Shown here: piece after piece, positions 853 to 64,000 of the stretch
How positions within the stretch are numbered: the stretch's first letter is position 1
How the letters are laid out: each line of letters opens with the position of its first letter
Assembly: GCA_027622715.1 (NCBI GenBank)
Contig: JAQBYN010000005.1
Location: forward strand, 1 to 64,000
Source: Pseudomonadota bacterium
GTDB taxonomy: Bacteria > Pseudomonadota > Alphaproteobacteria > SHVP01
Direction of reading: 5' to 3'
DNA length: 64,000 nt
Position numbers and translations under genes: made by a program
The notes under the pieces: generated by a model
Database searches by the model: none
What the model was told of the DNA's origin: nothing
Seen by the model: only the letters and a program-made list of their open reading frames with translations

Positions 853-873
853 AAGCGGGCGTTGACCCCGCTT
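853..873. other. 7-bp perfect hairpin in a 264-bp gap
   Basis: AAGCGGG (853-859) and CCCGCTT (867-873) form an inverted repeat around a 7-base loop in the gap between two divergent genes. There is no T tract long enough for a clear terminator. Its role is unknown; nothing else convincing is seen between 731 and 984. Confidence 0.3.
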
Positions 874-984
874 TGAGCAGGCGCGCTGGGGGCTGCCGGA
901 ACTCCCCCTGCTGGCGTACTTGATCGTCTCGACTACGGCGCAGGCGCGTTCGTAGCTTTCGGGCGATGGCAGGATGGGTGCGGT

Positions 985-1635: not shown

Positions 1636-1713
1636 TCGATCGTGCCGCATACCGATTGACCCCCACGCGCAATGGGAGGCTTTGTCGTTTGTTGACGGCG
1701 CTTTGGTAATCCG

Positions 1714-3159
1714 ATGAGCACACAGTATGACGTTATCGTCGTTGGCGCCGGAACCGCCGGCATCCCGTGCGCGGCCGCCGTTGCGGCGCGCGGCGGACGG
1801 GTCTTGCTGGTTGAGCAAAACGACGATGTCGGCGGCTCGCTCCACCTTTCAGCGGGGCAGATGAGCGGCGCTGGAACGCAGCTTCAAAAAGAACGCGGCA
1901 TTGAAGACCACCCGCGCCTGCACTTCAGCGACGCGATGCGCATCAGCAAGAACACGGCCGACCCGCAATTGGTTAACCTGGCTGTCAACCTGGCACCCGA
2001 TGTCATCGATTGGCTGATGGTCGAAGGTTTCGCCATGGACCCCGAGTGTCCGAAGATTTTCTATGGCCACGAAGCCTATAGTGTTGCGCGCACCTACTGG
2101 GGCGTCGACGGCGGCATCTCCATTCTCGAGGTACTTCGCCGGGTACTGACACGCCAACTCCGGCGCGGGCGGTTGGAGCTGCGCATCAACACCAGCATGG
2201 TGGGCCTGGTTCAGGACTCGCGCTATGCGCCAGTCACCGGCGTGAAGCTGCGCGGTCCCGACGGAAAAGTCCAAACCGTGCTGGCCAAGAACGTCGTGTT
2301 GACGACGGGCGGTTATGCCGGCAACGGACGCCTGTTTTCGCGACTGACCGACGGCCACCCGCTGTTCTCCGCCGGCATGCCGACGTCCAACGGGACCGGT
2401 ATTTTGTTGGGTTCTGCCGCGGGCGGCGCGATCCGCAATGGCGATAAATTCCTACCGACTTTCGCCGGTATCACGATCAACGGCCAATCGAACCGGGTCG
2501 ATTTTTACCGCATGCCATCACTGACACCGCAGGTGCGGCCGCCCTGGGAGATTTTCGTCAATCTCCATGGTCGCCGCTTTGTCGCCGAGGATCACCCGAG
2601 TGTCGACGAGCGCGAGAACCGGCTGCTGGAACAGCCCGAGATGTCCTTCTGGATCGTCTTCGACGATCGTATTCTCAAAGAGGCGCCAGCACTGCTCGGC
2701 CAAGGTGGCGGCCTCGCGGGCGGCGACTGGACACCCGAAGCCGTGCGCGAAGCCTACGCGACGCACCCCTCCTTCAAGACAGCCGACACCGTTGCCGGCC
2801 TCGCAGAAGCGTGCGGTTTGCGTGCCAGCGCGCTCACCGAGACCGTCGCCGATTACAACAACGCGGTGGACAGCGGCACCGACTCTTTAGGCCGTAAGCA
2901 TCTGCCGGCCAAGATCGAGACCGGCCCGTTCCATGCGATCAAGGCACACGGTGCCGTCCTGAAAACGCCCGCCGGGTTAAGCGTCAACACCGACCTTCAA
3001 GTCGTTAACCGCAAGGGGCAGGTCGTGCCCAATCTGTACGCCGCGGGCGAAGCGCTCGGCGGCGGCACGCTGTCGGGCAAAAGTTTCGTCGGCGGCATGA
3101 GCGTCACACCGGCGCTGGCCTTTGGCCGCTATCTAGGTAGCAACCTTCTGAAGTGGTAG
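1714..3159 (+). CDS. FAD-dependent oxidoreductase, fumarate reductase/tricarballylate dehydrogenase-like flavoprotein
   Basis: The 481-residue protein starts with a classical FAD-binding Rossmann motif (VVGAGTAGIPCAAAVAA, residues about 10-26), followed by LLVEQNDDVGGS. Near the C-terminus is the second FAD contact, LYAAGEALGGGTLSGKS, about residues 440-456. This order is that of the FAD_binding_2 family (fumarate reductase flavoprotein subunits, 3-ketosteroid dehydrogenases, TcuA). No signal peptide or haem motif is seen, so it is probably a soluble cytoplasmic dehydrogenase with an unknown partner. The start has only a weak ribosome site. It probably works with the CMD-like protein just upstream; the substrate cannot be deduced. 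Confidence 0.8.
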   Translation: MSTQYDVIVVGAGTAGIPCAAAVAARGGRVLLVEQNDDVGGSLHLSAGQMSGAGTQLQKERGIEDHPRLHFSDAMRISKNTADPQLVNLAVNLAPDVIDWLMVEGFAMDPECPKIFYGHEAYSVARTYWGVDGGISILEVLRRVLTRQLRRGRLELRINTSMVGLVQDSRYAPVTGVKLRGPDGKVQTVLAKNVVLTTGGYAGNGRLFSRLTDGHPLFSAGMPTSNGTGILLGSAAGGAIRNGDKFLPTFAGITINGQSNRVDFYRMPSLTPQVRPPWEIFVNLHGRRFVAEDHPSVDERENRLLEQPEMSFWIVFDDRILKEAPALLGQGGGLAGGDWTPEAVREAYATHPSFKTADTVAGLAEACGLRASALTETVADYNNAVDSGTDSLGRKHLPAKIETGPFHAIKAHGAVLKTPAGLSVNTDLQVVNRKGQVVPNLYAAGEALGGGTLSGKSFVGGMSVTPALAFGRYLGSNLLKW

Positions 3160-3169
3160 GACGGCGCCG

Positions 3170-3448
3170 CTAAGCCTGCCGCCGCGCCACAGCCCGGCTG
3201 GTCACCACCGTTTCAACATTGATGATCCGACGCAGGCACTCGGCCAAATAAGACTCCAAGTGTGCGTCGGTGTCGTCGAGATGGAACTCGATGTCCAACA
3301 TTTGAGCGGTGGTGATCTCAGAATGCCAATACGCGGGCACCATGTTGCGTTTGGCGAGGAGGTCGAGACAACGCGGCAAAACGTCCGGCGCTGCTGTCGC
3401 GCGGAGGTGGAAGCGCGTGTAGTGCGGATTATCGAATGATGATGACAT
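3170..3448 (-). CDS. small ACT-domain protein (IlvM-like), copy 1
   Basis: The 92-residue protein is essentially one ACT domain: an opening strand TRFHLRATAAPDVLPRCLDL, the helix LAKRNMVPAYW, then DIEFHLDD and the closing LRRIINVETVVTS. The fold and size resemble small regulatory subunits such as IlvM, whose ACT domains bind amino acids, but no acetolactate synthase large subunit is adjacent, so a regulatory role is inferred only. The ATG at 3448 is preferred over the upstream TTG at 3484 because that TTG falls inside the folded leader at 3474-3535. It is a clear paralogue of the gene at 4473-4760, with the same layout and the same kind of leader. Confidence 0.7.
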   Translation of the reverse strand: MSSSFDNPHYTRFHLRATAAPDVLPRCLDLLAKRNMVPAYWHSEITTAQMLDIEFHLDDTDAHLESYLAECLRRIINVETVVTSRAVARRQA

Positions 3449-3473
3449 GGCCTGCAGACTTTCGTGATGCGAT

Positions 3474-3535
3474 GGATTCGGCAACGGACAAAGCCCGACT
3501 TCCCAGGGAAGCCGGGTCCGTAATTCGCCAAATCC
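3474..3535 (-). promoter_or_regulatory. folded 5' leader motif upstream of ACT gene copy 1 (candidate riboswitch-like element)
   Basis: Read on the minus strand this 62-base segment folds as three nested stems. The outer stem is GGATTTGGC with GCCGAATCC (9 bp, one G-T). An asymmetric internal loop, GAATT against T, comes next. The middle stem is ACGGAC with GTCCGT (6 bp), and the terminal hairpin is CCGGCTTCC with GGAAGTCGG (9 bp, one G-T) around the loop CTG. It ends 25 bases before the ATG at 3448. The same architecture and the GARTTACGGRCCCGG core recur before the paralogous ACT gene. No known family could be assigned by eye. Confidence 0.6.
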
Positions 3536-3647
3536 GCATCTGCAGGTTCATGATCGGTGCAAAATGCGCGTGACCTCGGACGCAGTCAACAAAAAGATCT
3601 GTGTGGTCCGGACATTTAGCCGGCGCACTGCCTATGGCCCCGCGCCT

Positions 3648-4253
3648 TTAGAAGCCCAACGTAACGCTGTAAGTGCCGGTATAGGTACCGTCAGCATAAC
3701 CGCCGGATTCCGAGCCCGCGCCCGCCTGTACCCGGGTCGTCAGGGTACCGCCGACCATCACGTTCAGGACGCCAGCGCCGTCTGTTACCGGGTTGAAATC
3801 CATCGCCACGGCGGCCGGGGTGAAGTCAAACTGCGTTGCGACCGCGTCTGCAGGGTTAACCAGCTGCACCGTACCGCCAGACGTAATGGTAATCGTTGTG
3901 TTCGGCGGCGCGTTGGAAATCATGATCTTGCCCGGGGCCGGCGGCGCGATCACCAGTAAACGCGATTGCGAACCGGCGGAACCCGCTGTAATCGTCGTTG
4001 CGCCGCCGATCGGCTGCATAACGATCTGCGCCTGCGTCCCCGCGGTCGGCGATGCGACGGCAGCGACGGTGCCGAAAGTCACATTTTCCCAACCGCCCAC
4101 GCTGAACGTGTTCTGAACGACAACGGATGCGGAATAGTTGACCGTCTGACTTTGCGCTTGCGCCTGGTGTGCGACGAGCATTGTCGCGATCATCAGCCCG
4201 ACAAATGCCAGCACAACGTGACAACGTAAAAATGCGATTCGTGCCGTGCGCAT
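3648..4253 (-). CDS. secreted DUF4402 domain protein
   Basis: The 201-residue protein has a typical Sec signal peptide: a basic start (MRTARIAFLRC), a hydrophobic core and a cleavage-like AHQAQAQS near residue 34. The mature part is a low-complexity beta-sandwich with many T, G, V and A residues and ends in YTGTYSVTLGF, the usual C-terminal signature of DUF4402 proteins. The family is thought to be surface-exposed or periplasmic beta-rich protein related to pilin-like folds, but has no defined function. A GGGAGAG ribosome site precedes the ATG at 4253. It is transcribed as its own unit between the two ACT genes. Confidence 0.75.
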   Translation of the reverse strand: MRTARIAFLRCHVVLAFVGLMIATMLVAHQAQAQSQTVNYSASVVVQNTFSVGGWENVTFGTVAAVASPTAGTQAQIVMQPIGGATTITAGSAGSQSRLLVIAPPAPGKIMISNAPPNTTITITSGGTVQLVNPADAVATQFDFTPAAVAMDFNPVTDGAGVLNVMVGGTLTTRVQAGAGSESGGYADGTYTGTYSVTLGF

Positions 4254-4472
4254 ACTGCTCTCTCCCGGCGGGGCACTGACTTGCGCCTGTTAACGTTTGC
4301 GCTTCTGCGCACAACTCTTCCAGGGCATACGAAGCAAGGAGCGCGCCAAGGCGCAGCGCGGCGTTGCGGAAAAAAGGTTCCGCAATTCAGCCGTTCGGTA
4401 ACGACTTGTTAAGGTTAACGGAGTGGGAAGCGTCTGCCTGTCGGCACGATTTGCCCGGCAGTTTCTTCCCCG

Positions 4473-4760
4473 TCACGCGCGCCGTGCCGAAAGCGCGCGC
4501 GAGTCGGTCACGACCGTTTCAACGCAGAGGATTCGGCGTAGCCCATTCGCCAAAGCGCGGGCCTCCCCCGCCGCCAACCCGTCAAACTCCAAAGTCAGGT
4601 GGAGATTGGCGTCACTTTCATGCGCATTGCCGACCCACCGGCTCGGCACCAGTCCATGTTTGGCGAAGAGGTCGATAACGCGTGGCAGCGCGCTGGGATC
4701 AGCGGCGGCTTGGATCGCAAAAACGGCGGTCGATTGGGTGGTTCGGTCAGGAAAAGACAT
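4473..4760 (-). CDS. small ACT-domain protein (IlvM-like), copy 2
   Basis: This 95-residue protein parallels copy 1 along its length: AVFAIQAAADPSALPRVIDL, FAKHGLVPSRW, LHLTLEFDGL and LRRILCVETVVTDS. It is again a lone ACT domain of IlvM size. The ATG at 4760 is chosen because CCGGAG lies about 11 bases upstream and because the longer start at 4802 falls inside the folded leader element at 4788-4843. Its leader carries two tandem copies of the motif, compared with one for copy 1. A likely role is amino-acid-dependent regulation of an enzyme encoded elsewhere, which is inference from the fold only. Confidence 0.7.
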   Translation of the reverse strand: MSFPDRTTQSTAVFAIQAAADPSALPRVIDLFAKHGLVPSRWVGNAHESDANLHLTLEFDGLAAGEARALANGLRRILCVETVVTDSRALSARRA

Positions 4761-4787
4761 CGCACAAAGACTCCGGTAACAGCGAAT

Positions 4788-4843
4788 GGCGCAAACGGGC
4801 ATCGTCCCGGCTCCTCAGGGGAACCGGGCCCGTAACTCGCGCC
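4788..4843 (-). promoter_or_regulatory. folded 5' leader motif upstream of ACT gene copy 2, proximal element
   Basis: On the minus strand the element has the same plan as the one at 3474-3535. The outer stem is GGCGC/GCGCC, followed by the internal loop GAGTT opposite TT. The middle stem is ACGGGC/GCCCGT and the terminal hairpin is CCGGTTCC/GGAGCCGG with loop CCTGA. Relative to copy 1, the middle stem shows a compensatory A-T to G-C change and the outer stem differs in sequence but still pairs. It ends 27 bases before the ATG at 4760, almost the same spacing as in copy 1. Confidence 0.6.
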
Positions 4844-4846
4844 CAC

Positions 4847-4888
4847 GCGACTGCCTGGTCCGCCTGAAGGGCCGGGCCTGTAAGTCGC
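4847..4888 (-). promoter_or_regulatory. second, degenerate copy of the leader motif (distal element)
   Basis: Three bases upstream of the proximal element lies another copy of the 5' core, reading GACTTACAGGCCCGG on the minus strand. It is enclosed by GCGACT (RNA 5' end) and AGTCGC (RNA 3' end), which pair perfectly. The inner hairpin GCC-CTTCA-GGC can form, but the middle stem of the other copies is not preserved. It may be a decayed or alternative-fold partner in a tandem arrangement. Confidence 0.4.
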
Positions 4889-4953
4889 TGCTGTTGAGTC
4901 CTCGTGGTCATCGCGCGGAAAAATGGCGAAAACGCGCCCGCCTGTCAACCGCC

Positions 4954-6426
4954 TCAGACCGGTTCGAGCCGACCCGCCAACTCGTTTTTTAGAACTTTGC
5001 CAAACCCGTTCCTGGGCAAAGCACCGACCAGGAATATGGCGCGTGGCACCTTGTAACGTGCGAGGTGGGCCCGGCAATGCTGCAACAAAACCGCTTCCGG
5101 CGCAGGTTCGGACGCGACGACAAACGCCGCGATTTCTTCACCCATGTCACGCGACGGCCAAGCGACAACGGCCGCGTCGCCGACCAACGGGTGCTGCAGC
5201 AGCACTTGCTCAATCTCAGCTGGGTAAATGTTGACGCCACCACGGATGATCATGTCTTTGGCTCGACCAACCAGGTAGAGCCGGCCTTCGCCATCGAATT
5301 TGCCGAGATCGCCAGGGTAAAACCAACCATCCCGGAACGACTCTTTGGTCGCATCGGGGTCGTTGTAGAACGACGTGGCACAAGCCGCGCCGCGGTAACG
5401 CACCCGACCAACTTCGCCAGCCGGCAACGGCATGTGATCCTCGCCGACCACCTGCGCTTCGGCATTATTGACCGCGCGTCCGACCGACCGCGCCGCATCG
5501 CCGCTGTCAGTGGGCAACAGCACCGAGAGCCCGCCGCCTTCGGTCGAGCCGTAGTAGTTGTGCAAGTTCGGCGTGACGTGACGCAGCACCGCCTCCCGTT
5601 CATCGGGATGAAGGATCGCGCCTGTGGTGAACACGAGGCGCGGGCCCGGCAACAAGTGGCCGCGTTCCGGTGCAATCGTGACCAACCGGCGCAACAGCGT
5701 CGGCACCAACAGCGTGACCGAGATATTCTCCCGCGCGATCATCACGACGAGGTCTGGCGGCTCATACGGCAGGCCCATCATCACGACGGTTGCCCCGTGG
5801 TAGAGCATGCCCATGACAAAACTACGGCCGGCACCGAAATAGATCGGTAAGGCGCTCAGGAAGCGATCGCTCTCGACGAATCCCAACGTGATCGTTTGGG
5901 TCGCAAAACGCGCGTGCATTTGCTTGTGGCTATGCATCGGCCCCTTGGGCGTGCCCGTCGTGCCCGACGACAGCGACAACACCAGCCCATGCGCGTCGTC
6001 GCTGGGGAAATCGCGGTCGGGATCGGCGGCGCCGACCGCTGCCCACCAATCGTCCGCGACTTGGGCTTGATTGAGAGCGGGCGCAACACGCTCACCTGGC
6101 TCGGTCAGAACCAATTTCGCGCCGAAGAACCCCGCGATGCGGTCGCGTTCCTCGGCCGTCCAACGCACGTCCATCGGCAAGATCGCCGCGCCGGCACGCG
6201 CGACCCCGTAGAGCAGCGCCAAGTGCGCCGCGGTGTCGCGCAGACACACGCCAACGATATCGCCGGGGCCGATCCCACGATCGATCAGGTGGCCACCGAT
6301 TCGGCGCACCAAGTCGGCAAGATCGTTGTACGTGATCGTTCGCCCGCCGCCGACGATGGCCGGATGGTTGGGCCGAGTCCGCGCAAAATCATCGAGGCGA
6401 TCGGCAATATTTCCGGAGGTTTTCAT
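4954..6426 (-). CDS. class I adenylate-forming enzyme (acyl-CoA synthetase/AMP-dependent ligase)
   Basis: The 490-residue protein belongs to the ANL superfamily. It shows the AMP-binding P-loop-like motif LSLSSGTTGTPKGPMHSH (about residue 150), the A5-type motif NYYGSTEGG, the adenylate-binding YPGDLGKFDGEGRLYLVGR region, and near the C-terminus RNGFGKVLKNEL with the catalytic lysine. These enzymes activate a carboxylic acid to an acyl-AMP and then usually form a CoA thioester; the acid is not predictable here. The enzyme is probably cytoplasmic. It lies upstream of the ACT gene copy 2 and downstream of a cysteine hydrolase on the same strand, but the gaps argue against tight coupling. Confidence 0.85.
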   Translation of the reverse strand: MKTSGNIADRLDDFARTRPNHPAIVGGGRTITYNDLADLVRRIGGHLIDRGIGPGDIVGVCLRDTAAHLALLYGVARAGAAILPMDVRWTAEERDRIAGFFGAKLVLTEPGERVAPALNQAQVADDWWAAVGAADPDRDFPSDDAHGLVLSLSSGTTGTPKGPMHSHKQMHARFATQTITLGFVESDRFLSALPIYFGAGRSFVMGMLYHGATVVMMGLPYEPPDLVVMIARENISVTLLVPTLLRRLVTIAPERGHLLPGPRLVFTTGAILHPDEREAVLRHVTPNLHNYYGSTEGGGLSVLLPTDSGDAARSVGRAVNNAEAQVVGEDHMPLPAGEVGRVRYRGAACATSFYNDPDATKESFRDGWFYPGDLGKFDGEGRLYLVGRAKDMIIRGGVNIYPAEIEQVLLQHPLVGDAAVVAWPSRDMGEEIAAFVVASEPAPEAVLLQHCRAHLARYKVPRAIFLVGALPRNGFGKVLKNELAGRLEPV

Positions 6427-10929: not shown

Positions 10930-11164
10930 CCGTCGACGCACCAGAGGACATTGGGTGACGTAGTCCCGCCCGTTCACAATTTCCGGTCCCCACATTGACG
11001 GCGGGTAAAGACGAACCACATGCGTTCAGACCCGACCGTGACCGCATCGGGCGAGCGGGCATGGCCCGGGTGCTCGAGAGATCGGGCCAGGGGTCGATCG
11101 GGGCGTTTGGTGGCCGGTCATCCTCGACTGGCGCGCTCGCGACGCATGGGAAATGTCCGGACCG

Positions 11165-11399
11165 TTGGGTTCGTTCGTATTATCCGCAGATGGGCTGTTG
11201 ATTTTGAACGCTTTTTTGGCTTCGTTTGGTAAAATAATTCCGGATCGAGGGGTCGGCCAACGCCGAACGGCGGGTGGTCGGGGGACACGACGAGAACCGG
11301 TACGTGGCGCAAACCACTGATTCCAAATAGTTTTTTGGCTTCGTTCGTCGTTCTAAAACCTAAGCCACTGTTACAGCGCGTTTTTTTGGCTTCGTTTGG
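11165..11399 (+). repeat. four spaced copies of a T-rich GGCTTCGTT repeat in a 560-bp gene-free region
   Basis: The stretch 10930-11492 holds no convincing gene. Within it TTTTTTGGCTTCGTTTGG occurs at 11212-11229, with close copies at 11331-11347 (ending in CGTTCG) and 11381-11399 (one extra T). A diverged copy, TTGGGTTCGTTCG, lies at 11165-11177. The first and third T-rich copies also share flanking sequence, an AARAWAAT-like run followed by TCCG. All copies are in the same orientation and are spaced irregularly (about 50 to 120 bases). An open frame on the minus strand through them repeats NEAKK- and TKPKK-like strings but has no credible start. Confidence 0.65.
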
Positions 11400-11492
11400 C
11401 AAGAAAATATCCGCGCTGTCGCCGCAAGCACACCGTTCACCGGCCTGCCAACGATCCGCTATCATCACGCCAACACTGCCAGGAAGGCCGCT

Positions 11493-12608
11493 ATGCGATC
11501 GAACCAGCCCGCAGACGTCACCGACGTTCTTGAGGACCGCTCGTTCCGTGCTTTTCAGAGTTTCGTTCGGGCGAGCCGCGCGTATATGGACACGGTGGTC
11601 TACGAGGACACCTGGCACAGCTATCGCCGCGCGTTGACCGACCGTGGTGAGGGCAACGGCGCCGTGCCGCAGGACGCCGATGCGGCGTTCGACGTGCTAG
11701 ATGCCCTACCCGCCTACCAGCTCTACGCCTGGATGTACCGCCACCTGCAACGCTTCAAGTACAGCTACCCCGACTACGGCATTCACCCTAAGGCCGAGAG
11801 CGAAGCTGCACACATCGCGCGAGAACTCGACACGGCGGCGGAAACCGCCATCGCGGCCGGCACGCTGCGCCTCAACCCCGACATTGCCTACCCGGACTAT
11901 TACCGCCTGACCGATTTCCACCAGCATCCGGGTGGCGTGTGGAGCGACGACATCGACGGTCTGGTTTACGAGTTGGGGCGGCGCACCACGCGGCCGCACG
12001 AGGACGACGCCAACGACCTCTACCGCCTCGCGTTTTCCTACTTACCCAAACGCGACTATGCGCGCGTGCTCGACTGGGGTACCGGCCAAGGCGGGTTTGC
12101 CCTGACCTGGTTGGAATCACACCCGGACTCCGAGGTCCACGGCGTGGATATCGCGGCACCGTGCCTAAAGCTGGTGAACAAGCGAGCGATGGAGCGGGGC
12201 GTGACCGTGCACCTGTCACAGCAAGCGGTCGAGGCAATGGACTATCCCGACGACCATTTCGATCTGATCCTCTCGTGTTTCATGTTCCACGAGATTCCGC
12301 CCGGCCCCACCCCAGGAATCCTGGCCGAGATCGCCCGTGTCCTGAAACCCGGTGGGGTTTTTGCGGGTATCGAATTTCTCCCCAAAGAGGACAGCCCATT
12401 CCAGGAGGCGATGATGCTAACCACCGCCTACACCAACAACGAGCCATTCGCGCCCGCCTCATACACCTATCCTTATGCCGACCAAGCTAAAGAGGCCGGA
12501 TTCGCCAAGGCCGAGATCGTGTGGTTCGACAAGATCATGGCGCCTGCCAGCGACAACCCCGCGGTGCCCCCACGAACTCGTTACCCGATTTACCTGTTCG
12601 AGAAGTAA
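11493..12608 (+). CDS. class I SAM-dependent methyltransferase with conserved N-terminal extension (paralogue 2 of 3)
   Basis: The 371-residue protein is clearly homologous to the gene at 8276-9382. The N-terminal extension carries YQLYAWMYRHLQRFKYS and TDFHQHPGGVWSDDIDGLVY. The methyltransferase core has VLDWGTGQGGFALTW near residue 192, VHGVDIAAPCLKL, and LILSCFMFHEIPPGPTPGIL, then LKPGGVFAGIEF. An AGGAAGG ribosome site lies just before the ATG at 11493. It is a single-gene unit downstream of the repeat-rich gap. The acceptor substrate is unknown; the shared HQHPGG segment outside the SAM site may mark the acceptor or a metal site. Confidence 0.8.
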   Translation: MRSNQPADVTDVLEDRSFRAFQSFVRASRAYMDTVVYEDTWHSYRRALTDRGEGNGAVPQDADAAFDVLDALPAYQLYAWMYRHLQRFKYSYPDYGIHPKAESEAAHIARELDTAAETAIAAGTLRLNPDIAYPDYYRLTDFHQHPGGVWSDDIDGLVYELGRRTTRPHEDDANDLYRLAFSYLPKRDYARVLDWGTGQGGFALTWLESHPDSEVHGVDIAAPCLKLVNKRAMERGVTVHLSQQAVEAMDYPDDHFDLILSCFMFHEIPPGPTPGILAEIARVLKPGGVFAGIEFLPKEDSPFQEAMMLTTAYTNNEPFAPASYTYPYADQAKEAGFAKAEIVWFDKIMAPASDNPAVPPRTRYPIYLFEK

Positions 12609-12792
12609 CCAGTCGCGTCGGCGCTTTGCCAGAGCATCCCAGCTAATCTGTTGATCTTAATAGAAGTTTTGTAGACCTCGAGGATCAACCCTCTGGGGGG
12701 ACCGCACGCCGCTACGTAAACTCCCGGATTGTCCTTTTACCGCTTTCCCGGTAGCAACTTAAACGCGAGTACTGGGTCTTCCGGAGATGATG

Positions 12793-14601
12793 ATGTCGAC
12801 TCTAAGCACGGCCGAAACGATGCCCCCGAAGACCGGGCTCGATCTCGACGCACCGGCAAAGCGAGGCCTTATGTCCGGTACCCGTTGGGCCGGCGTGGTC
12901 CTCGTCGTCATGCTTGTGATAACGGTCGCCTCGTACGTCTCGGTCCAGTCAAGTGCCCGTCAGAGCGGCCAACTCCGGCTCGATCTGCGCGCCGAGGAGA
13001 TCGAGGCCGCGACTGGCGCCCGAATGGCCGCCTATATCGAGGTCTTGCGCGGCGGCTTGGGCTTGTTCAATGCATCCGACTCGGTCAGCCGCGACGAGTG
13101 GCGCACCTATGTCGACACATTGGAAATCGACACGGTGCTTCCCGGTATCCAGGGAATCGGCTACACCGAATTCGTTCGTCCCGAAAACCGCGCGCGCTAC
13201 GAGCAATCCATTCAAGACGAGGGATTTGCTGGCTTTCACATCCGCCCGGTGGGCGACCGACAGATTTACTCATCGATCACATTCCTCGAACCGTTCGACG
13301 AGCGCAACCGTCAGGCCTTCGGCTTCGACATGTATCAGCAAGAAACGCGCCGCGACGCAATGGACCGGGCCCGCGATACCGGTCAGGCTGCGATTTCCGG
13401 CAGAGTCACGTTGGTTCAAGAAATCAGCGAAGACGTGCAGGCCGGCTTCCTGATGTACTTGCCTTACTACGGCCGTGGCGGCGACCCACAAGATGTCGAC
13501 GCCCGCCGCCAAGCGATCGTCGGTTTCGTCTATAGCCCGTTTCGCGCGGGCAATCTTATGAACGGAATTCTTGGCATCGGCCCGGACGACGTTCGGCTTG
13601 AAATATTTGACGGCGCGACCACCTCCTCCCAGGAATTGCTCTATGACAGCGCCGGATCGAAGGCCCCGTCCGCTGAACCGAAATTCGCTGCAACGCGCGT
13701 CTTGACGACCGGTCGGCGCCAGTGGGCCCTCAGGGTAACAAGCCTTCCTTCGTTCGAAGCGTCGACGCGCGCGGACGAAACGGAAATGGTGGTGCTGTTC
13801 GGTGGAACTCTTCTCAGTTTTCTGGTTTTCGGCATCCTGTGGTCCTTCGCAAGCACCCGTGAGCGGGCGCGCGAATTGGCCAACACAATGACCATGAGGC
13901 TTCAGGCCAATACCACGGAGCTACAACGCTCGAACGCCGAACTCGAACTCTTCGCTTACGTCGCTTCCCATGATCTTAAAGCGCCACTGCGCGGTATCGA
14001 TCATCTCGCGTCATGGATCGAAAACGACCTCGGGGACGCGTTGACCGGCGAACCGAAACACAACATGGGCCTCCTGAAAGGCCGGATCAAACGGCTGGAT
14101 GCCTTGCTGAGCGATCTCCTTGATTACTCACGAGCCAGTCGCCATGAAGCGGATCCGGAACCGATTTCGATCGGGTCGAGTTTGCGCGAGTGGTTCGACG
14201 TCCTGAACATCGACGGGCGCTTCACTTTGCATCAAACAATCAACGTTCCTACAGTGACCATCGCGGCCGTCCGGTTTGAGCAGGTGTTGACCAACCTTTT
14301 CACCAACACGATGAAACATCACGGTGGAGAACGCGGAAATATCTACGTCAAAGTACTCGAAACGCCGGAATTCTACGAGATTCACTACGAAGATGACGGC
14401 GTTGGCATCCCGGCCGATCAACGCGAGCGCGCTTTTCAGATGTTCCAGACCCTGCAACCCCGCGACAAGGTCGAGGGGAGCGGCATGGGCATGGCCATCA
14501 TCCGTAAGATTGTCGAGCGTGCGGGTGGTTCCGTCGAGTGCATGGATCGACCGGCCGGGCAGAACGGCGTGTTTTTCCGAATTCTTTGGAAGAAAGTTTA
14601 A
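12793..14601 (+). CDS. CHASE-domain sensor histidine kinase
   Basis: The 602-residue membrane kinase has a first membrane helix at about residues 30-52 (GVVLVVMLVITVASYVSV). An extracytoplasmic CHASE domain follows, about 70-260, with GIQGIGYTEFV and SSITFLEPFDERNRQAFGFD. A second membrane helix is at about 325-345. The HisKA domain has the phospho-acceptor H393 in YVASHDLKAPLRGID, and the HATPase has EDDGVGIP and SGMGMAI boxes. CHASE domains sense small extracellular ligands. Of three consecutive ATGs (12787, 12790, 12793), the third is best spaced from GGAG. The linker between the second helix and HisKA is short, without PAS or GAF. It is followed by two response-regulator genes. Confidence 0.9.
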   Translation: MSTLSTAETMPPKTGLDLDAPAKRGLMSGTRWAGVVLVVMLVITVASYVSVQSSARQSGQLRLDLRAEEIEAATGARMAAYIEVLRGGLGLFNASDSVSRDEWRTYVDTLEIDTVLPGIQGIGYTEFVRPENRARYEQSIQDEGFAGFHIRPVGDRQIYSSITFLEPFDERNRQAFGFDMYQQETRRDAMDRARDTGQAAISGRVTLVQEISEDVQAGFLMYLPYYGRGGDPQDVDARRQAIVGFVYSPFRAGNLMNGILGIGPDDVRLEIFDGATTSSQELLYDSAGSKAPSAEPKFAATRVLTTGRRQWALRVTSLPSFEASTRADETEMVVLFGGTLLSFLVFGILWSFASTRERARELANTMTMRLQANTTELQRSNAELELFAYVASHDLKAPLRGIDHLASWIENDLGDALTGEPKHNMGLLKGRIKRLDALLSDLLDYSRASRHEADPEPISIGSSLREWFDVLNIDGRFTLHQTINVPTVTIAAVRFEQVLTNLFTNTMKHHGGERGNIYVKVLETPEFYEIHYEDDGVGIPADQRERAFQMFQTLQPRDKVEGSGMGMAIIRKIVERAGGSVECMDRPAGQNGVFFRILWKKV

Positions 14602-57185: not shown

Positions 57186-58007
57186 CTATTTTTCGTAGAC
57201 CGCGAATTCGACAAGACCCGTATTGCCGCCGCTGCTCTCGACAACATCGAGGCGAAGTATCTTTGACTCCACATCGACTGCAAAGCGATAGGGCTTGCTT
57301 GCATCGGGCAACTCGAACGGGCCCAGCTTGCGACCGTCATCAGTGGTTAGCGTGAACTTGTAGGTCTGCGCGGTGCCATCGCTCATCGAGCGCGTCCACA
57401 CCTCGACCTCGCCTATTCGTGCTCGTTTCGGCAGCTCGACGACGATAAACGCCCCATCGCCGTCACCGTTCGACGACCACGCGGAACCGCGTTGTCCATC
57501 GATCGCGTTGTTGGCGCCGAACGACCCATCGTTGGGCTGATTGGACCAGTTGCTCGATACCGCGGCGACACGCGCACCTTCCCGAAGTGACGCCAAATTG
57601 GCGCGGATGTCGCGGGGCGCGGCGGCAGTGCGAAAGGTCTGGGTTTCTCCAACGAAAACGCGGCCGTCGGCGGCGACTCCTTGAACCCGAAAGTGATACT
57701 CCCGATCCGGCAACAGATTAGTCATGAGAGGATGGTGGTACTCGTGCGCGCCGCCATCCATATCCTGATCCACGGCGATCTGACCGAAGGCTTCTGTTTC
57801 GCCGTATACGACGGAGCAGGCCAGTGGAACGCTGGAGCGGAACAAAAGCACCGCATCCCGGTGCGTGATTTCGGTGACCGCAGGCGGAGCGCCCGCGGCA
57901 ACCTCGGCAATCGAACGCACGCCGAATGAGCGTTCTTGACTGAACGCCTGGGGTGCCTCTGCCGCAAAAACAAAAACCGCAATGAGCAGCGTGCTAAAAC
58001 GCACCAT
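57186..58007 (-). CDS. secreted protein with fibronectin type III-like and discoidin (F5/8 type C-like) domains
   Basis: The 273-residue protein has a Sec signal peptide (MVRFSTLLIAVFVFAAEAPQ, then AFSQ). A fibronectin type III/purple-acid-phosphatase-N-like domain follows, about 45-145 (TEITHRDAVLLFRSSVPLAC and LMTNLLPDREYHFRVQG). A C-terminal F5/8 type C-like domain, about 155-273, has ANNAIDGQRGSAWSSNGDGD and AFIVVELPKRARIGEVEVWT. Such domains bind carbohydrates or surfaces. The ATG at 58007 is preceded by AGGAG. Longer frames upstream are not plausible. It is convergent with the LLM gene. Confidence 0.75.
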   Translation of the reverse strand: MVRFSTLLIAVFVFAAEAPQAFSQERSFGVRSIAEVAAGAPPAVTEITHRDAVLLFRSSVPLACSVVYGETEAFGQIAVDQDMDGGAHEYHHPLMTNLLPDREYHFRVQGVAADGRVFVGETQTFRTAAAPRDIRANLASLREGARVAAVSSNWSNQPNDGSFGANNAIDGQRGSAWSSNGDGDGAFIVVELPKRARIGEVEVWTRSMSDGTAQTYKFTLTTDDGRKLGPFELPDASKPYRFAVDVESKILRLDVVESSGGNTGLVEFAVYEK

Positions 58008-58118
58008 GAAGACACTCCTGTGAACAGCGTCCGCTTCGAATACGGGGCGTGTGCTTCCTTTGCAAGGCCGCATCATTGTAGGCATGTTCAACTCTCCTTG
58101 ACTGATCGGGATACCCCT

Positions 58119-59384
58119 ATGACAAACCCGGGCCTCATCAACATTGCGACCGCCGTCTTCACGCTCGCCGCAGTGTTTGGCTACATCAATCACCGCTGGC
58201 TCAAATTGCCGACGACGATTGGCCTCGTTGTCATCGCGATGATGTCGTCGCTTTGCGTTATCGCCCTGGATAGTGCGTTTCCTGAATTGAATTTGCGTGA
58301 CACCGCGCGCGCCGCATTTCTGCAGATCGATTTTCACGAAACGCTCATGCAGGGTTTGTTGAGTTTTCTGCTGTTTGCCGGCGCGCTGCACGTCAATCTC
58401 GACGACTTGATCGCCCGCAAATGGGCAATTGGGTCGTTGGCGACGGCGGGCGTGTTGATCTCGACCGCCCTCAATGCGATCGGGGTCTACTATCTTGCGC
58501 GCGTTTTAGGGATCGACATTCCTTTCGCTTGGGCCCTGGTGTTCGGGGCCCTGATCTCGCCCACCGATCCGGTCGCGGTGTTGGGCATTCTTAAGACCGT
58601 GCCCGGTGTGCCCGATAGCCTGCGCGCCAAGATTGCCGGTGAGAGCCTCTTCAACGACGGCGTCGGCGTTGTGGTCTTTGCGATTCTGCTGGCCGTCGCG
58701 CTGGGCGGCGGCGCCCACGGCGGCGAGCCGATTGGTGCGTTGGGGATCGCCGAGCTCTTTGTCGTCGAAGCGCTCGGCGGTGCGCTTCTTGGGCTCGTCA
58801 CCGGACTGGTCGCGTTTTACGCCATTAAGTCGATAGACGAATACAACCTCGAAATCATGATCACGCTGTCACTTGTGATGTTGACTTACGGCATAGCGAC
58901 ATTGCTCCACCTTTCGGGACCAATCGCCGTCGTGATTGCCGGGTTGTTAATCGGCAATCACGGCACTCGTCTCGCTATGAGCGACAGATCCCGTGAACAC
59001 GTCGAGACCTTTTGGGCCCTACTGGACGAAATCTTGAACGCAGCCCTGTTCCTGCTTATTGGTTTCGAAGTGATTGCTCTGTCCTTCAGCGCACCCGAAT
59101 TACTCGGCATGCTACTTGCCATACCGCTCGCCGTGTTCGCGCGATTCGTATCAGTATCGATTCCCATTGCCGTCCTAGGCCTGCGCCAGACTTTCACCAA
59201 GGGCGCGATTCCCGTTCTCACCTGGGGCGGGCTTAAGGGCGGGATTTCGGTCGCTCTGGCCCTCTCGCTGCCGGATTTTCCAGCGCGAGAACCGATCCTC
59301 GCCATCACCTACGGCGTCGTGATCTTCTCGATCATCGTTCAGGGTCTGTCGATCCGACGGGTGGTGCGGATTGCGGTGCGCTGA
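58119..59384 (+). CDS. cation:proton antiporter (CPA1/NhaP family)
   Basis: The 421-residue protein has about 12 membrane helices and the CPA1 hallmark GALISPTDPVAVLGIL (helix 5), followed by GESLFNDGVGVVVFAILLAV with the ND pair that carries cations. It is of the short-tail NhaP/NhaK-like type, exchanging Na+ or K+ for protons in the inner membrane. The ATG at 58119 starts just before the first helix; earlier frames overlap the divergent secreted-protein gene. Its 3' end overlaps the ATP-grasp gene on the other strand by 53 bases. Confidence 0.9.
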   Translation: MTNPGLINIATAVFTLAAVFGYINHRWLKLPTTIGLVVIAMMSSLCVIALDSAFPELNLRDTARAAFLQIDFHETLMQGLLSFLLFAGALHVNLDDLIARKWAIGSLATAGVLISTALNAIGVYYLARVLGIDIPFAWALVFGALISPTDPVAVLGILKTVPGVPDSLRAKIAGESLFNDGVGVVVFAILLAVALGGGAHGGEPIGALGIAELFVVEALGGALLGLVTGLVAFYAIKSIDEYNLEIMITLSLVMLTYGIATLLHLSGPIAVVIAGLLIGNHGTRLAMSDRSREHVETFWALLDEILNAALFLLIGFEVIALSFSAPELLGMLLAIPLAVFARFVSVSIPIAVLGLRQTFTKGAIPVLTWGGLKGGISVALALSLPDFPAREPILAITYGVVIFSIIVQGLSIRRVVRIAVR

Positions 59385-60591
59385 TCCCGAACCGAAGGCA
59401 CCGATGCGCCGCGCGCAACGAGTCCTCTACCGCGTCGGGCGTATCGCCACGCGCAAGAATGAACCCGAGGTACCGGTTGCCTTCAGGCAGCGGCACGACA
59501 ATCTCACCGCGCGGAATACTGATCGTAACTTCGTGGATCCCGGGCGTGAACTGCGCCTCCGCCAAGCCATCGACATAATCGAGACAACCAGCGGCGGGGA
59601 TTGGAATCATCATCACGCCTGCCGCGCGATCTTCGCGGTTTGTTTCGACTGTCTGGCCGAGGGCATGGCGGACAATGATTTCTTCCAAACTCAAGCCGGT
59701 ACCGAAGCGTAGCGCGCGCCCACACAAGCCGCCGATTGACCGCGCTGCTACTTCCAGCACGTAAGCGTCGGTACCGTCGAGGCGAATCTCCGCATGGATT
59801 GGCCCGCTGTGCAGTCCCACAGCTGCAACGGCTTGGGCGGCAGCCCGCTGCACAACCTTTTGCTTCTCCTGATCCAGGCGTGAGGGCGTCACGTAGATCG
59901 TCTCTTCGAAATATGGACCATCAAGCGGGTCGGGCTTATCGAAAATCGCTAACGTCTTAAGCGTACCGTTGACCAGCAAACCTTCGAGCGCCACCTCGAC
60001 CCCCGGCACAAAAGACTCAACCAGGAGGGCCCGCGACGTTGGGCTGCGTAAGTTCGGATCTTCCGAACGCACGATCGCCGCTGTCCTGGAAAACGCGACT
60101 TCAAACGCCCGCTGATCGTCAGCACGAATGACCCCGCGACTGGCCGACATCGCGAGCGGCTTCACAACACAAGGAAACGCCACGCGGGTTCGGGCGGGAC
60201 CGTCAATCGGCAACACCTCGAACTGTGCCTGCGGCAATCCCGCAGCAGACAACACTTCCCTTAAGCGGCGCTTGTTGCCCGCGGCCTCAATTGAATCCGG
60301 TTTGTTGTGCGCCAGCCCCAGTGCTTGGCTGGCCCGCGCCGCGAGCAACGTGGGCCCTTCGTCCACGGCCACAATCGCGTCAAGCGGATGCAATACCGCA
60401 TAGTCCGCGATCTGGGTTACGCCGACGTTGTGATTGGAAAAATCGACTGAGAATGCACCGTCCCCCGGTAGCGCGGTGCCGGCCCCTTTGCCGACGCCCA
60501 CGACAACTTCGGCACCGGTGGCTTGGGCCGCTTTGAGAAAATCGCCGATCCGATAGGACGACGTCGGCACGAGCAGCAGAAGCCGAGGCAT
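59332..60591 (-). CDS. ATP-grasp ligase-like protein, partner of CCAEP-tail radical SAM gene
   Basis: The 419-residue protein has a preATP-grasp N-terminal Rossmann region (MPRLLLLVPTSSYRIGDFLK), an ATP-grasp domain from about 105 to 305 (including FPCVVKPLAMSASRGVIRAD, LLVESFVPGVEVALEGLLVN and GPIHAEIRLDGTDAYVLEVA with E and N-type magnesium ligands in EVAARSIGG), and a C-terminal tail. ATP-grasp enzymes form amide or ester-type bonds from carboxylate and amine via acyl phosphate. It starts 4 bases after the radical SAM stop, so is co-expressed with it, and overlaps the antiporter gene on the other strand by 53 bases. Confidence 0.85.
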   Translation of the reverse strand: MPRLLLLVPTSSYRIGDFLKAAQATGAEVVVGVGKGAGTALPGDGAFSVDFSNHNVGVTQIADYAVLHPLDAIVAVDEGPTLLAARASQALGLAHNKPDSIEAAGNKRRLREVLSAAGLPQAQFEVLPIDGPARTRVAFPCVVKPLAMSASRGVIRADDQRAFEVAFSRTAAIVRSEDPNLRSPTSRALLVESFVPGVEVALEGLLVNGTLKTLAIFDKPDPLDGPYFEETIYVTPSRLDQEKQKVVQRAAAQAVAAVGLHSGPIHAEIRLDGTDAYVLEVAARSIGGLCGRALRFGTGLSLEEIIVRHALGQTVETNREDRAAGVMMIPIPAAGCLDYVDGLAEAQFTPGIHEVTISIPRGEIVVPLPEGNRYLGFILARGDTPDAVEDSLRAAHRCLRFGISAPQSAPPVGSTDPER

Positions 60592-60595
60592 AGTT

Positions 60596-61981
60596 TTAGA
60601 TCGCGGCGCGCTGGAGGTCCGTTGGTTCGGCACAGCAGTACCAGGGCTCGCTCATGCGGGGTACCGTCGCGCCGATTTTCGCGACTGGCAGCGCTCGAGA
60701 TAGCCCCGCGGCGGCATGGGCAATGTCCCACAGGCGGCCAAATACCGCGCTTCTCGTATCGCCTGCGGCGTCGCCCGCTTCAACGGCCCGCTGAATGTCG
60801 CGCTGCAGTTCATCGACTCGCTGATCGACATGGCGCCAACCGTAGCTGAGGGCTTCGGCATCGAACGGGCCAATGGCGCTCGCCATCGCCGCGTGGCCGA
60901 CCAGCAAGGATCCCCTCGGCACGAGCAACCGAATCGCGAGCTGGACCGGTGCGACATGCTCAACCAGGTCAAGATCGGCAATGTCTTGAAGCAGCGCCGC
61001 GTAACTCGCCAAGCTGGTCCAGGGGGCGAAAGCGACAAACGTCGGCGATAGCGTGAGTCCGACTTGGCGCGCGAGTGCCAAGGCCTCGATGAAATCCCCC
61101 CGCGTGTGTCCTTTGTCCAGGATATCGAGGCTGTCGTCGTCCAGGGCCTCGACAGCGGTCGTCACAAACAGACAGCCGGTCTCAACAAGCGTTGGCAACA
61201 AATCGCGGTGTCGCAAGAGGTGCTCCACTTTGATGGTCACGTCGTATGTCAGATCGGGGAATCGCTCGTGAAGCGCGCTGACAACGCCGATACCGTGGCT
61301 CGGTCCGTTGAAGAAATCGGGATCGCCAAAGCTAATGTGCTGGGCACCGGCGGCCACTTGTTGTGCGATGTCAGCGACGACGATATCGCGTTGGACAATG
61401 CGAAACGCGCCGTCGTAAACCGGGACCACAGGACAATGCCGACACCGGTGCTTGCACCCCCGGCTTGCTTCGACGTAGCCCGCAACGCACTCCGCCCCAT
61501 CAGCCATGATGAGTTTTCCATATGACTCGAGCGGCGGCAGGCCGCTGCGATCGGGTACACGAAACTGTAGTTTTTCCAAGTGGATTGTCGCGCCGTTCCC
61601 GTTGATCTGGCGATCGGCGACTAGGTCGTCCAATACCTCGACGAGGGCTGCTTCGTATTCGCCGCCAATCACGCTCCCTACACCAAGCGATCGCAGATGC
61701 GCTTCATTCACTGGCGCATAGAGCCCGAAGGCGACGATATGAGCTTTCGGGTTGAGCGCCCTTACGCGCGGAATAATCTCGGACGCCAATCGAGTGGCGG
61801 TGTGCATCGGCACATGGAAAGCGACAAGTCCTGCGCGCCCGATTTCGGCCTCGTCGAGGCGATCAAGCGATAGGTCGAGGCAGGTCACCGTTGCGCCGGC
61901 CTCCCGCAGCCAAGCGGCGGGCGATGCCAGCCCCAGGGGCTGGTGTCCGAGGTCGTATGTCGAAACAAGTACGGCGTGCAT
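60596..61981 (-). CDS. CUAEP/CCAEP-tail radical SAM protein (Cys-Cys form)
   Basis: The 461-residue protein has a B12-binding-like N-terminal domain (about 1-120), then a radical SAM barrel with CxxxCxxC in EASRGCKHRCRHCPV (C176, C180, C183) for the 4Fe-4S cluster and SAM. The far C-terminus reads EPWYCCAEPTDLQRAAI with C449 (TGC) and C450 (TGT). The CCAEP tail is the hallmark of a family whose other members have selenocysteine at the second position. Here both are cysteine, with no TGA. The reaction is unknown; ATG 61981 is preferred, 61996 possible. It lies between a NifU-type gene and an ATP-grasp gene. Confidence 0.85.
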   Translation of the reverse strand: MHAVLVSTYDLGHQPLGLASPAAWLREAGATVTCLDLSLDRLDEAEIGRAGLVAFHVPMHTATRLASEIIPRVRALNPKAHIVAFGLYAPVNEAHLRSLGVGSVIGGEYEAALVEVLDDLVADRQINGNGATIHLEKLQFRVPDRSGLPPLESYGKLIMADGAECVAGYVEASRGCKHRCRHCPVVPVYDGAFRIVQRDIVVADIAQQVAAGAQHISFGDPDFFNGPSHGIGVVSALHERFPDLTYDVTIKVEHLLRHRDLLPTLVETGCLFVTTAVEALDDDSLDILDKGHTRGDFIEALALARQVGLTLSPTFVAFAPWTSLASYAALLQDIADLDLVEHVAPVQLAIRLLVPRGSLLVGHAAMASAIGPFDAEALSYGWRHVDQRVDELQRDIQRAVEAGDAAGDTRSAVFGRLWDIAHAAAGLSRALPVAKIGATVPRMSEPWYCCAEPTDLQRAAI

Positions 61982-62001
61982 GGGTACGTTCCGCATTCGT
62001 A

Positions 62002-62853
62002 CTAGTACGCTTCCATGCCCCCTTTTCCAGCCTGGAAATACGGGTTTTGCCCCCCGGCATGGTCGGTCGAATCCAATACGGCATTGATCGAGGGGACGGC
62101 CTGTTTGATCGCGACTTCCACACCTTGCTTGAGCGTAACGTCCGCCATGCCGCAGCCCTGGCAACCACCCTCCAACCGGATATAGACAGTGTCGCCCTGG
62201 ACATCGACGAGCGCGATGTGCCCGCCGTGTGACGCTACCGACGGGTTGATCTGTTCGTCCAAGACCCTCCTGACCGCCAGCCCTTCTGGCGTATCGAGAC
62301 CGGGTTTGGGAATGGCGTCGAGATGATCGACGACGCGCTCAACCTCGGGCACGAAATGGCGAATCATGTTTTCGATTCCGCCGATCAAGCTTCGCGCCGA
62401 GCCCTTCAACTCCAAAATGACGTCGCCGTCCTCGTAGCCGACAAATATCACCTCACCGCCGTCGCGGCTGACGACCGGCATCACGCGCTCTTCAATGATC
62501 TCGCGAATCCGCGCGCTCACAGGGTCGTCCGCGCCTGCAGTTGGGGCAATCGAGACACCGTCGTCGTTCATGATCGGATGACCGAGCGTCAGGTGATCCA
62601 TGATCGCAACGAGCATGGCCGGCTTGAGTGCCGCCCAATCGGACTGGGGCTGTTTCTCAATCACGATCGTGGTCTGAAGAAGTGTGACCCGTGAAATGTC
62701 TCCCGCCTCAAACAGGCGCGCCGCCAACGGGGAAGCCGTTTTGGCCTCGTCGTGACTGACGTAGGTCACTTCGCCGCCACCCGCTAGAACTTCGCGGCCT
62801 GGATTGAATCGAAGCTGGGACGGATCCTCAAGCTGCTCGGTTTGAATGAACAT
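62002..62853 (-). CDS. NifU/Nfu-type iron-sulfur carrier with degenerate second NifU domain
   Basis: The 283-residue protein has an N-terminal Nfu_N-like domain (about 1-90, FIQTEQLEDPSQLRFNPGRE). Two NifU-like domains follow. The first (about 108-170) lacks its cysteines: the equivalent loop reads LKGSARSLIGG. The second (about 188-255) has the functional C-x2-C in LEGGCQGCGMADVTLKQGVE. It should bind and deliver one Fe-S cluster per dimer. Three domains is unusual; most Nfu proteins have one NifU domain. It heads an operon with the radical SAM and ATP-grasp genes (20-base and 4-base gaps) and would supply clusters to the radical SAM enzyme. Confidence 0.85.
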   Translation of the reverse strand: MFIQTEQLEDPSQLRFNPGREVLAGGGEVTYVSHDEAKTASPLAARLFEAGDISRVTLLQTTIVIEKQPQSDWAALKPAMLVAIMDHLTLGHPIMNDDGVSIAPTAGADDPVSARIREIIEERVMPVVSRDGGEVIFVGYEDGDVILELKGSARSLIGGIENMIRHFVPEVERVVDHLDAIPKPGLDTPEGLAVRRVLDEQINPSVASHGGHIALVDVQGDTVYIRLEGGCQGCGMADVTLKQGVEVAIKQAVPSINAVLDSTDHAGGQNPYFQAGKGGMEAY

Positions 62854-62858
62854 ATTTA

Positions 62859-62882
62859 ATCCTGACTAATTCAGTCGATTAT
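62859..62882 (-). promoter_or_regulatory. candidate IscR-type operator upstream of the NifU-radical SAM operon
   Basis: On the minus strand ATAATCGACTGAATTAGTCAGG, an imperfect palindrome centred on GACT-GAATT-AGTC, starts 5 bases upstream of the ATG at 62853. It fits the type 1 IscR motif ATASYYGACTRWWWYAGTC and following bases at nearly all informative positions. Its AGGA also serves as ribosome site, so IscR binding could affect transcription just at the start. This is a motif match only. Confidence 0.5.
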
Positions 62883-63073: not shown

Positions 63074-64000
63074 GTGTTTGATCTCCGCGACCCGGTTGGC
63101 TGCCGGATAGGGGGAACTATCCCTGAGGCCCAAACGGCGCGAGCCGAACCGGGTAGCCGCCTCGCCTTGGCCGAGCGGTTCCATCGATGCCGTGCGCTCA
63201 CCGAGCATCTCGCCGCCCATTTGGCGCCCGAAGACCAAGTGCCCCAGTCGATGCCGGATGCCAGCCCGACCAAGTGGCACCGGGCCCACACGACCTGGTT
63301 CTTCGACACGTTTCTCCTACAACCCCATTTGCCCGGCTACGCCTCGCCGAACCCGACATACGGCTATTTGTTTAATTCGTACTACGAAGCCTCGGGCGCC
63401 CGGCATCCGCGACCGCAACGGGGTTTGCTATCCCGGCCGACGGTGGCCGAGGTCGGGGATTACCGTCGGGTCGTCGACGAGGCCATGGCACGGCTGATCG
63501 AGTCCGCCGACGACCAACAATGGGCCGCGATCGCCCCGCTGATTGAGCTCGGCATTGCCCATGAAGAGCAGCATGACGAACTGATCCTGATGGATGTTCT
63601 TCACCTTTTTTCGCATAACGCCCTGCGCCCTGCGTTTGCGCCTTTCCGCCCAGCGGGCGCGGGCCAAGCCATGCCGCCTGAGTGGATCTTTTTTGATGGC
63701 GGCATTGTTGAGGTTGGCCACGACGGCGAAGGCTTCGCCTTTGATTGTGAGGGCCCGCGCCACCAGGCATTGCTGCGGCCGTTTCGCCTCGCATCGCGTC
63801 TGGTTACCAACGGCGAGTGGCGGGCGTTCATGGCCGACGGCGGCTATGAGCGGGCCGATATTTGGCTGTCGGACGGTTGGGCCACGGTCAAACAGGAACA
63901 ATGGCGCGCACCGCTCTACTGGGAACAGATTGACGGCGCCTGGCAGGCGATGACGTTGTCGGGCATGCACCCGATTGAGGATGCCGCGCCGGTCTGCCAT
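63074..64000 (+). CDS. egtB: ergothioneine biosynthesis protein EgtB, C-terminus cut by window edge
   Basis: The frame from GTG 63074 runs 309 codons to the window edge without a stop. It has the DinB-like domain of EgtB with metal-binding histidines in SPTKWHRAHTTWFFDTFLLQ and LGIAHEEQHDELILMDVLHL (HxxxH and H-x3-x-E type), followed by the start of the sulfatase-modifying-factor-like domain FFDGGIVEVGHDGEGFAFDC. EgtB is the non-haem iron sulfoxide synthase that joins trimethylhistidine and a thiol in ergothioneine synthesis. A later TTG at 63167 is an alternative start. It is divergent from the NifU operon across a 220-base gap. Confidence 0.9.
   Translation, partial: MFDLRDPVGCRIGGTIPEAQTARAEPGSRLALAERFHRCRALTEHLAAHLAPEDQVPQSMPDASPTKWHRAHTTWFFDTFLLQPHLPGYASPNPTYGYLFNSYYEASGARHPRPQRGLLSRPTVAEVGDYRRVVDEAMARLIESADDQQWAAIAPLIELGIAHEEQHDELILMDVLHLFSHNALRPAFAPFRPAGAGQAMPPEWIFFDGGIVEVGHDGEGFAFDCEGPRHQALLRPFRLASRLVTNGEWRAFMADGGYERADIWLSDGWATVKQEQWRAPLYWEQIDGAWQAMTLSGMHPIEDAAPVCH

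Follow-up and report, generated by a model that had tools for sequence, protein, structure and literature searches.

The closest studied sequence relative of the enzyme described here is ArsL, which belongs to the arsQML gene set of B. gladioli and is reported to make hydroxyarsinothricin, with transfer of a 3-amino-3-carboxypropyl group as the predicted reaction (PMC8552651). The Cys-Cys-Ala-Glu-Pro (CCAEP) tail already figures in a family name, that of NCBIfam NF040546, the CUAEP/CCAEP-tail radical S-adenosylmethionine (SAM) (seleno)protein, where U stands for selenocysteine (Sec). As far as we found, this family has been named but not given a function. It is missing from the 119-entry table of PMC13188914, and the term CUAEP did not occur in the literature we searched, although some of the points below may have been mentioned elsewhere before. 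Here we analyze a member of this family in a 64,000-nucleotide stretch of an alphaproteobacterial genome of 3.15 Mb (contig JAQBYN010000005.1 of assembly GCA_027622715.1; the whole stretch is hereafter the window). An initial annotation had described a three-gene operon in which an Nfu-type iron-sulfur (Fe-S) carrier, a CCAEP-tail radical SAM enzyme and an ATP-grasp ligase would combine cluster supply, radical chemistry and bond formation. Our comparison across genomes shows that the true unit is the pair of radical SAM enzyme and ATP-grasp ligase. The radical SAM enzyme in the window is a member of a named, unexplained family, and by analogy the pair probably makes a small unusual dipeptide.

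Results

The radical SAM protein of the window is a full-length member of NF040546, and its next-best NCBIfam match is ArsL (NF040542; 280.4 bits, below the cut-off of 450). It is homologous to ArsL over about 400 residues, with C-terminal vicinal cysteines and an FxDxDFFN-type motif in common, and it has the radical SAM CX3CX2C motif (C176, C180 and C183). The RCCLKC C-terminus of ArsL is replaced by CCAEP in the window protein; the tail CC of CUAEP aligns with the CC of RCCLKC, an alignment that is partly forced by position in so short a tail. C270, invariant in CUAEP proteins, is not a cysteine in ArsL-type proteins, and the family conserves no cysteines other than C270, the three of the radical SAM motif and the tail pair. 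CUAEP proteins form a separate clade (support 100/100), with no ars genes recurring near them. Five of the six ArsL-type loci that we read also contain an ATP-grasp gene (Alicyclobacillus, two from Priestia, Pantoea and Klebsiella; plasmids), the sixth, from Pseudomonas amygdali, having none. The ATP-grasp genes of these plasmid loci suggest peptide forms of arsinothricin-like compounds. In the RCCLKC-type plasmid loci (L035, L117, L118, L119 and L120; L and G numbers are our handles for loci and genomes), the ATP-grasp gene lies beside arsM, major facilitator superfamily or aquaporin genes.

The ATP-grasp protein of the window matches the Pfam domains ATP-grasp_4 (100.5 versus 27 bits) and LAL_C2 (52.5 versus 29.4 bits), a domain content that places it with the L-amino-acid ligases and predicts dipeptide formation. 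Its closest solved structure, BL00235 (PDB 3vot), matches with 147 bits over residues 63–382 and has both domains. Unlike BL00235 and BacD, the window protein carries an invariant cysteine, C290, in an IGGLC signature. This residue could be compatible with a thiophilic substrate or, alternatively, could be a trait of a wider subfamily.

We read the best 80 of at least 557 relatives of the radical SAM protein found in a scan of GTDB species. Their contigs are labelled as Alphaproteobacteria, Acidobacteriota, Chloroflexota, Thermomicrobiota, Actinomycetota, SAR324, Calditrichota and a small number of other groups; as the majority derive from metagenome assemblies, single labels (e.g. Bifidobacterium breve, Nitrospira) may be wrong. 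A query of viral contigs with a single protein gave no relative. In a tree rooted with ArsL, the window copy sits on a long branch within an almost wholly pseudomonadotal clade of 29 proteins (98/90), all with CC tails.

The radical SAM and ATP-grasp genes are strongly associated. Of the 78 loci with sufficient downstream sequence, 39 carry an ATP-grasp homologue on the same strand immediately after the radical SAM gene; the median gap is 21 bases. Another 36 genomes with the radical SAM gene were picked mostly because no directly adjacent ATP-grasp copy had been seen, and 28 of them hold an orthologue-grade homologue (E ≤ 1e-72) at a distance or in a different orientation. Across 199 Acidobacteriota, 30 had both genes, 2 only the radical SAM gene, 2 only the ATP-grasp gene and 165 neither (Fisher p = 7e-31, with shared ancestry left out of account, as in all our co-occurrence counts); the two radical SAM-only cases are a fragment and a DUF169 type. 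Among 299 Pseudomonadota genomes, none but that of the window contains the ATP-grasp gene (E 1e-40), and none but that one has a radical SAM protein that passes the CUAEP cut-off. The distance matrices of the two proteins correlate as well (r = 0.83, matched by 0 of 1000 permutations, shared species history not being removed). A lack of clustering among homologues, which the initial annotation had named as refuting its view, is thus clearly contradicted for the radical SAM and ATP-grasp genes; Nfu, less consistently linked, lies directly upstream in 26 of 77 loci. The pair has repeatedly been split within genomes yet retained together, and the partnership is near-obligate.

With the radical SAM gene elsewhere, the ATP-grasp gene still follows Nfu in Alphaproteobacteria and can adjoin a YggX-like gene in Chloroflexota; we take this to be YggX from its sequence, by eye. 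In two loci from related Pseudomonadota (L081, positions 4311–5420, and L094), where the ATP-grasp gene is elsewhere, a penicillin-acyltransferase-like (AAT) gene lies 5' of the radical SAM gene. In Chloroflexus (L113, positions 305–3728; L103; L109), the radical SAM gene is preceded by what appear, by eye, to be three genes for a circularly permuted ATP-grasp, an alpha-E and a transglutaminase protein.

The tail is real: the window protein carries ...EPWYCCAEPTDLQRAAI, comprising C449, C450, A451, E452 and P453, and the pair followed by AEP is invariant in the 81 relatives whose tail is covered. Counting in-frame UGA as Sec throughout, the pair is CC in 50 of these, CU in 25, UC in 3 and UU in 3. 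Downstream of the UGA, the AEP and an EQ[FLV]A pattern continue as in the Cys forms. The window copy itself (codons TGC TGT) encodes Cys-Cys and no Sec, and its genome has no tRNA-Sec match above the cut-off (best 46.6 versus 47 bits).

Several features mark the UGA forms as selenoproteins. A conserved hairpin of selenocysteine insertion sequence (SECIS) type lies about 16 bases 3' of the UGA in these forms only; 79% of its named pairs are formed behind UGA versus 39% behind Cys forms, and stem length differs as well (p = 1e-11). Some stems are compensated, for example in L084 and, in a shifted register, L034. A tRNA-Sec scoring above 60 bits was found in 25 of the 30 UGA genomes searched, including all three with UU, and in 11 of 18 Cys-tail genomes. 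Because many Cys-tail genomes carry tRNA-Sec too, we dropped a strict correlation between Sec tail and tRNA-Sec, which is a trend (p = 0.10). UGA-form relatives thus combine an in-frame UGA, a downstream hairpin and a genomic tRNA-Sec.

Well-supported branches of the tree require at least 6 or 7 switches between CC and CU; the UC forms make up one clade, and the UU forms are placed around it. This repeated switching, together with the UC and UU forms, argues that the two tail positions are interchangeable, a property that would suit a two-ligand or redox pair. The UU forms, with adjacent in-frame UGA codons, are radical SAM proteins of Chloroflexota (L048, L067 and L089), and the Sec-Cys order occurs in L056, L058 and L080. 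The UC and UU forms are, to our knowledge, undescribed, although they may have been reported earlier. As far as we found, our analysis adds to the NF040546 name these two forms, the hairpin and the partnership with the ATP-grasp protein.

A proposed pathway

We tentatively favor a pathway, drawn by analogy, in which ArsL-like carbon transfer from SAM is followed by dipeptide ligation, with the pair riding on a housekeeping Nfu unit. In the first step, the radical SAM enzyme would cleave SAM as ArsL does and transfer a carbon fragment, most likely 3-amino-3-carboxypropyl, to an acceptor, either a nucleophile or a thiophilic element, that the vicinal Cys/Sec pair of the tail would bind, with the invariant C270 as a possible further ligand. 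CU pairs occur in HgcA, SaoC and SaoL (PMC13188914), which resemble the CUAEP proteins in their Cys-Sec pair and soft-metal chemistry but belong to different families, so that the resemblance is at the level of the motif only. In the second step, the ATP-grasp enzyme of L-amino-acid ligase type would couple the unusual amino acid so formed with another amino acid. Nfu would supply or repair Fe-S clusters, and in this genus a predicted IscR site may tie expression to Fe-S status. The order suggested by the initial annotation, radical chemistry and then bond formation, fits the pair.

Several points weigh against this pathway. The transferred group is proposed by analogy with ArsL only, and CUAEP proteins are about 29–35% identical to ArsL-type proteins and have two tail cysteines against the three of ArsL. 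The ATP-grasp protein of the Alicyclobacillus ArsL locus is only 26% identical to that of the window, so pairing with an ATP-grasp could have arisen convergently in ArsL-type and CUAEP loci. No arsenic gene recurs among the neighbor clusters of CUAEP genes, and ArsM is no commoner in Acidobacteriota genomes with the radical SAM gene (19/32 versus 86/167, p = 0.45). Finally, genomes without the ATP-grasp gene include those of L052, L057, L064 and L073, in which a DUF169 gene lies near the radical SAM gene, so the product may differ between clades.

Alternative explanations

The fold of the radical SAM protein bears on the best-surviving alternative, that it is a cobalamin-dependent radical methylase, or another radical enzyme that transfers nothing (a dehydratase or epimerase), working on a small molecule and coupled to amide ligation, with the tail pair as a redox or resting disulfide. 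The Pfam radical SAM match is above its cut-off (44.9 bits), and the N-terminal B12-binding match (PF02310) is just below (31.1 versus 32.1 bits). An AlphaFold2 model has a mean predicted local distance difference test score of 93.7 (72 in the linker at 431–440, 82–87 in the tail at 441–461), and its best solved matches score closely together: AprD4 (Z 27.8), OxsB (27.6), TsrM (25.8) and MgmA (25.7). Cobalamin-binding and non-binding enzymes thus match about equally; cobalamin is bound by OxsB and TsrM, although both lack the classical motif, and not by AprD4. The B12-binding-like domain and these folds speak for the cobalamin enzyme, but no DxHxxG-like motif was found among the conserved N-terminal positions of the alignment, ArsL is the nearest studied relative in sequence, and we know of no methylase with a Cys/Sec tail of this kind. 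We consider this explanation unlikely.

The Nfu gene bears on a second alternative, sulfur or selenium insertion, in which the enzyme would use up either a cluster or a persulfide bound to the tail, with Nfu restoring it, as NfuA does for lipoyl synthase. The initial annotation was right that Nfu has three domains; we identify them as Nfu_N, a NifU domain that lacks CxxC, and a further NifU domain in which C231/C234 are intact. NfuA and NFU1-type proteins share the Nfu_N and NifU domains and the conserved CxxC, whereas the extra NifU domain without CxxC sets the window protein apart, as does its score with the NfuA equivalog model (98.5 bits versus a cut-off of 269.35). It is the only NifU-domain protein in its genome. 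Members of the window's family without the pair retain an Nfu of 59% identity, and one of them (G003) retains it beside egtB. With a sole Nfu in the genome and an Nfu-egtB arrangement that exists without the pair, this protein is probably a general Fe-S carrier rather than a dedicated part, and the pair sits behind it. The earlier idea of a dedicated cluster supplier is therefore doubtful, although the link itself recurs, in Alphaproteobacteria and others. In a further genome (G007, locus L186), Nfu is followed by a 52%-identical ATP-grasp gene, and no radical SAM gene was found in this draft assembly.

Control of the unit may also respond to Fe-S status. Scored against the IscR type-1 consensus, the window has a single candidate site that reaches at least 19, lying 5–29 bases before the Nfu start. 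It is identical in the sister species G001 and G002, and no comparable score was found upstream of Nfu in G003, G005, G007 or G009, a distribution suggesting that, in this genus, the unit came under Fe-S-responsive control together with the pair or later. We rejected RirA-type boxes as a general feature of the regions in front of alphaproteobacterial operons (2 of 25 loci, with 1 expected by chance). The two loci, L072 and L111, have RirA-like TGA-N9-TCA boxes about 50 bases upstream of Nfu.

For sulfur insertion, then, speak the recurrent Nfu, a YggX-like iron-trafficking gene near the ATP-grasp gene in Acidobacteriota and Chloroflexota, the IscR-type site and a fold likeness to MiaB and RimO (Z 22–25). 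However, a classical MiaB-type auxiliary cluster would need more conserved cysteines than the family has, and most Acidobacteriota and Chloroflexota loci have no Nfu next to the pair, making this explanation quite improbable.

We give scarcely more room to a third alternative than to a long shot: an organometallic pathway specifically for mercury or arsenic. In two Acidobacteriota loci, the CUAEP gene is followed by genes for DUF169, a CpaM-type methyltransferase and an HgcAB-like fusion (L052, about 11100–13903, 332 bits; L057, 10363–14675, 329 bits; cut-off 285). ArsL is an arsenic enzyme, and a vicinal Cys/Sec pair is well suited to elements of this kind. However, HgcAB-like proteins are not associated with CUAEP among the 199 Acidobacteriota (2/6 versus 30/193, p = 0.25), nor is ArsM, and neither ars nor mer genes recur as neighbors. 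We therefore rejected a mercury link, the HgcAB-like neighbors of the two loci being a local variant without phylum-wide association, and arsenic methylation likewise. L057 also contains a further B12-type radical SAM gene.

Modification of a ribosomal peptide or protein is the least likely explanation, and a very remote one: radical SAM and ATP-grasp enzymes are both known from such pathways, and the ATP-grasp could act on a terminus, but a substrate gene would not fit into the short gaps of the unit, in agreement with the initial annotation, the ATP-grasp belongs with the ligases of free amino acids, and a search of homologous loci for small conserved open reading frames (ORFs) of at least 70 amino acids, shorter ones not being covered, found only YggX and, in a single marine clade, an ORF of the Lrp ligand-binding type.

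Organization of the locus

The three ORFs are present where the initial annotation placed them; all lie on the minus strand, separated by 20 and 4 bases (Table 1). We adopted the ATG starts conserved in relatives (at 61981 for the radical SAM gene, with its stop at 60596, and at 60591 for the ATP-grasp gene, with its stop at 59332); an automatic ORF caller extends both genes to upstream TTG or GTG codons. The end of the ATP-grasp gene overlaps the end of a convergent antiporter-like ORF (57936–59384) by 53 bases. Scans for sigma-70 promoters and terminators across the unit gave no excess over shuffled sequence. The same three-gene order occurs in two congeneric genomes (G001 and G002, 73–82% identity), in Alphaproteobacteria and on one Nitrospira-labelled contig; in seven other genomes of the window's family, a radical SAM match is absent.

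Table 1. Features of the radical SAM/ATP-grasp locus and its surroundings, in window coordinates.
Feature	Position	Strand	Remarks
Nfu-type Fe-S carrier	62002..62853	-	283 aa; Nfu_N followed by a degenerate NifU domain and one that has CxxC (C231/C234)
CUAEP/CCAEP-tail radical SAM protein	60596..61981	-	461 aa; NF040546 613.6 bits versus cut-off 500
Radical SAM motif C176-x3-C180-x2-C183	61433..61456	-	invariant in 42- and 46-row alignments
C-terminal CCAEP tail (C449, C450)	60623..60637	-	relatives here carry CC, CU, UC or UU
ATP-grasp ligase, L-amino-acid ligase type	59332..60591	-	419 aa; ATP-grasp_4 and LAL_C2; invariant C290
IscR type-1-like site, just 5' of Nfu start	62858..62882	-	22/25 consensus positions
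egtB, divergent from Nfu	63074..64000, to about 64396 past the window, then egtD	+	judged outside the system

The divergent egtB had raised the idea of a thiol- or histidine-derived product. This link did not hold up: egt genes are not among the recurrent neighbor clusters, and the neighbors are an ordinary EgtB (577.8 versus a cut-off of 360) and EgtD (394.4 versus 290.9). We rejected a role in ergothioneine synthesis as incidental, given the Nfu-egtB adjacency without the pair in G003, and one in selenoneine synthesis, the neighbor being EgtB and not SenA (339.8 versus a cut-off of 420).

Discussion

The pairing of an orphan radical SAM enzyme with a near-obligate ligase partner turns a family known by its tail into a testable two-step pathway, all the more since an ATP-grasp gene also usually accompanies its sister family in arsenic-antibiotic clusters. 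The CC, CU, UC and UU series at one site is an unusual natural experiment on the role of selenium in such a tail. The pair may, more doubtfully than the pathway itself, make a widespread and so far undescribed class of small dipeptides, in phyla from Alphaproteobacteria to Acidobacteriota and Chloroflexota. These would contain either a soft element or a novel bond between carbon and an element, formed by radical transfer from SAM, with the Cys/Sec tail (adjacent Sec-Sec included) as the holder of the element. If the product does carry a soft element, bacteria that are very common in soil and sea would add a new branch to natural organo-element chemistry.

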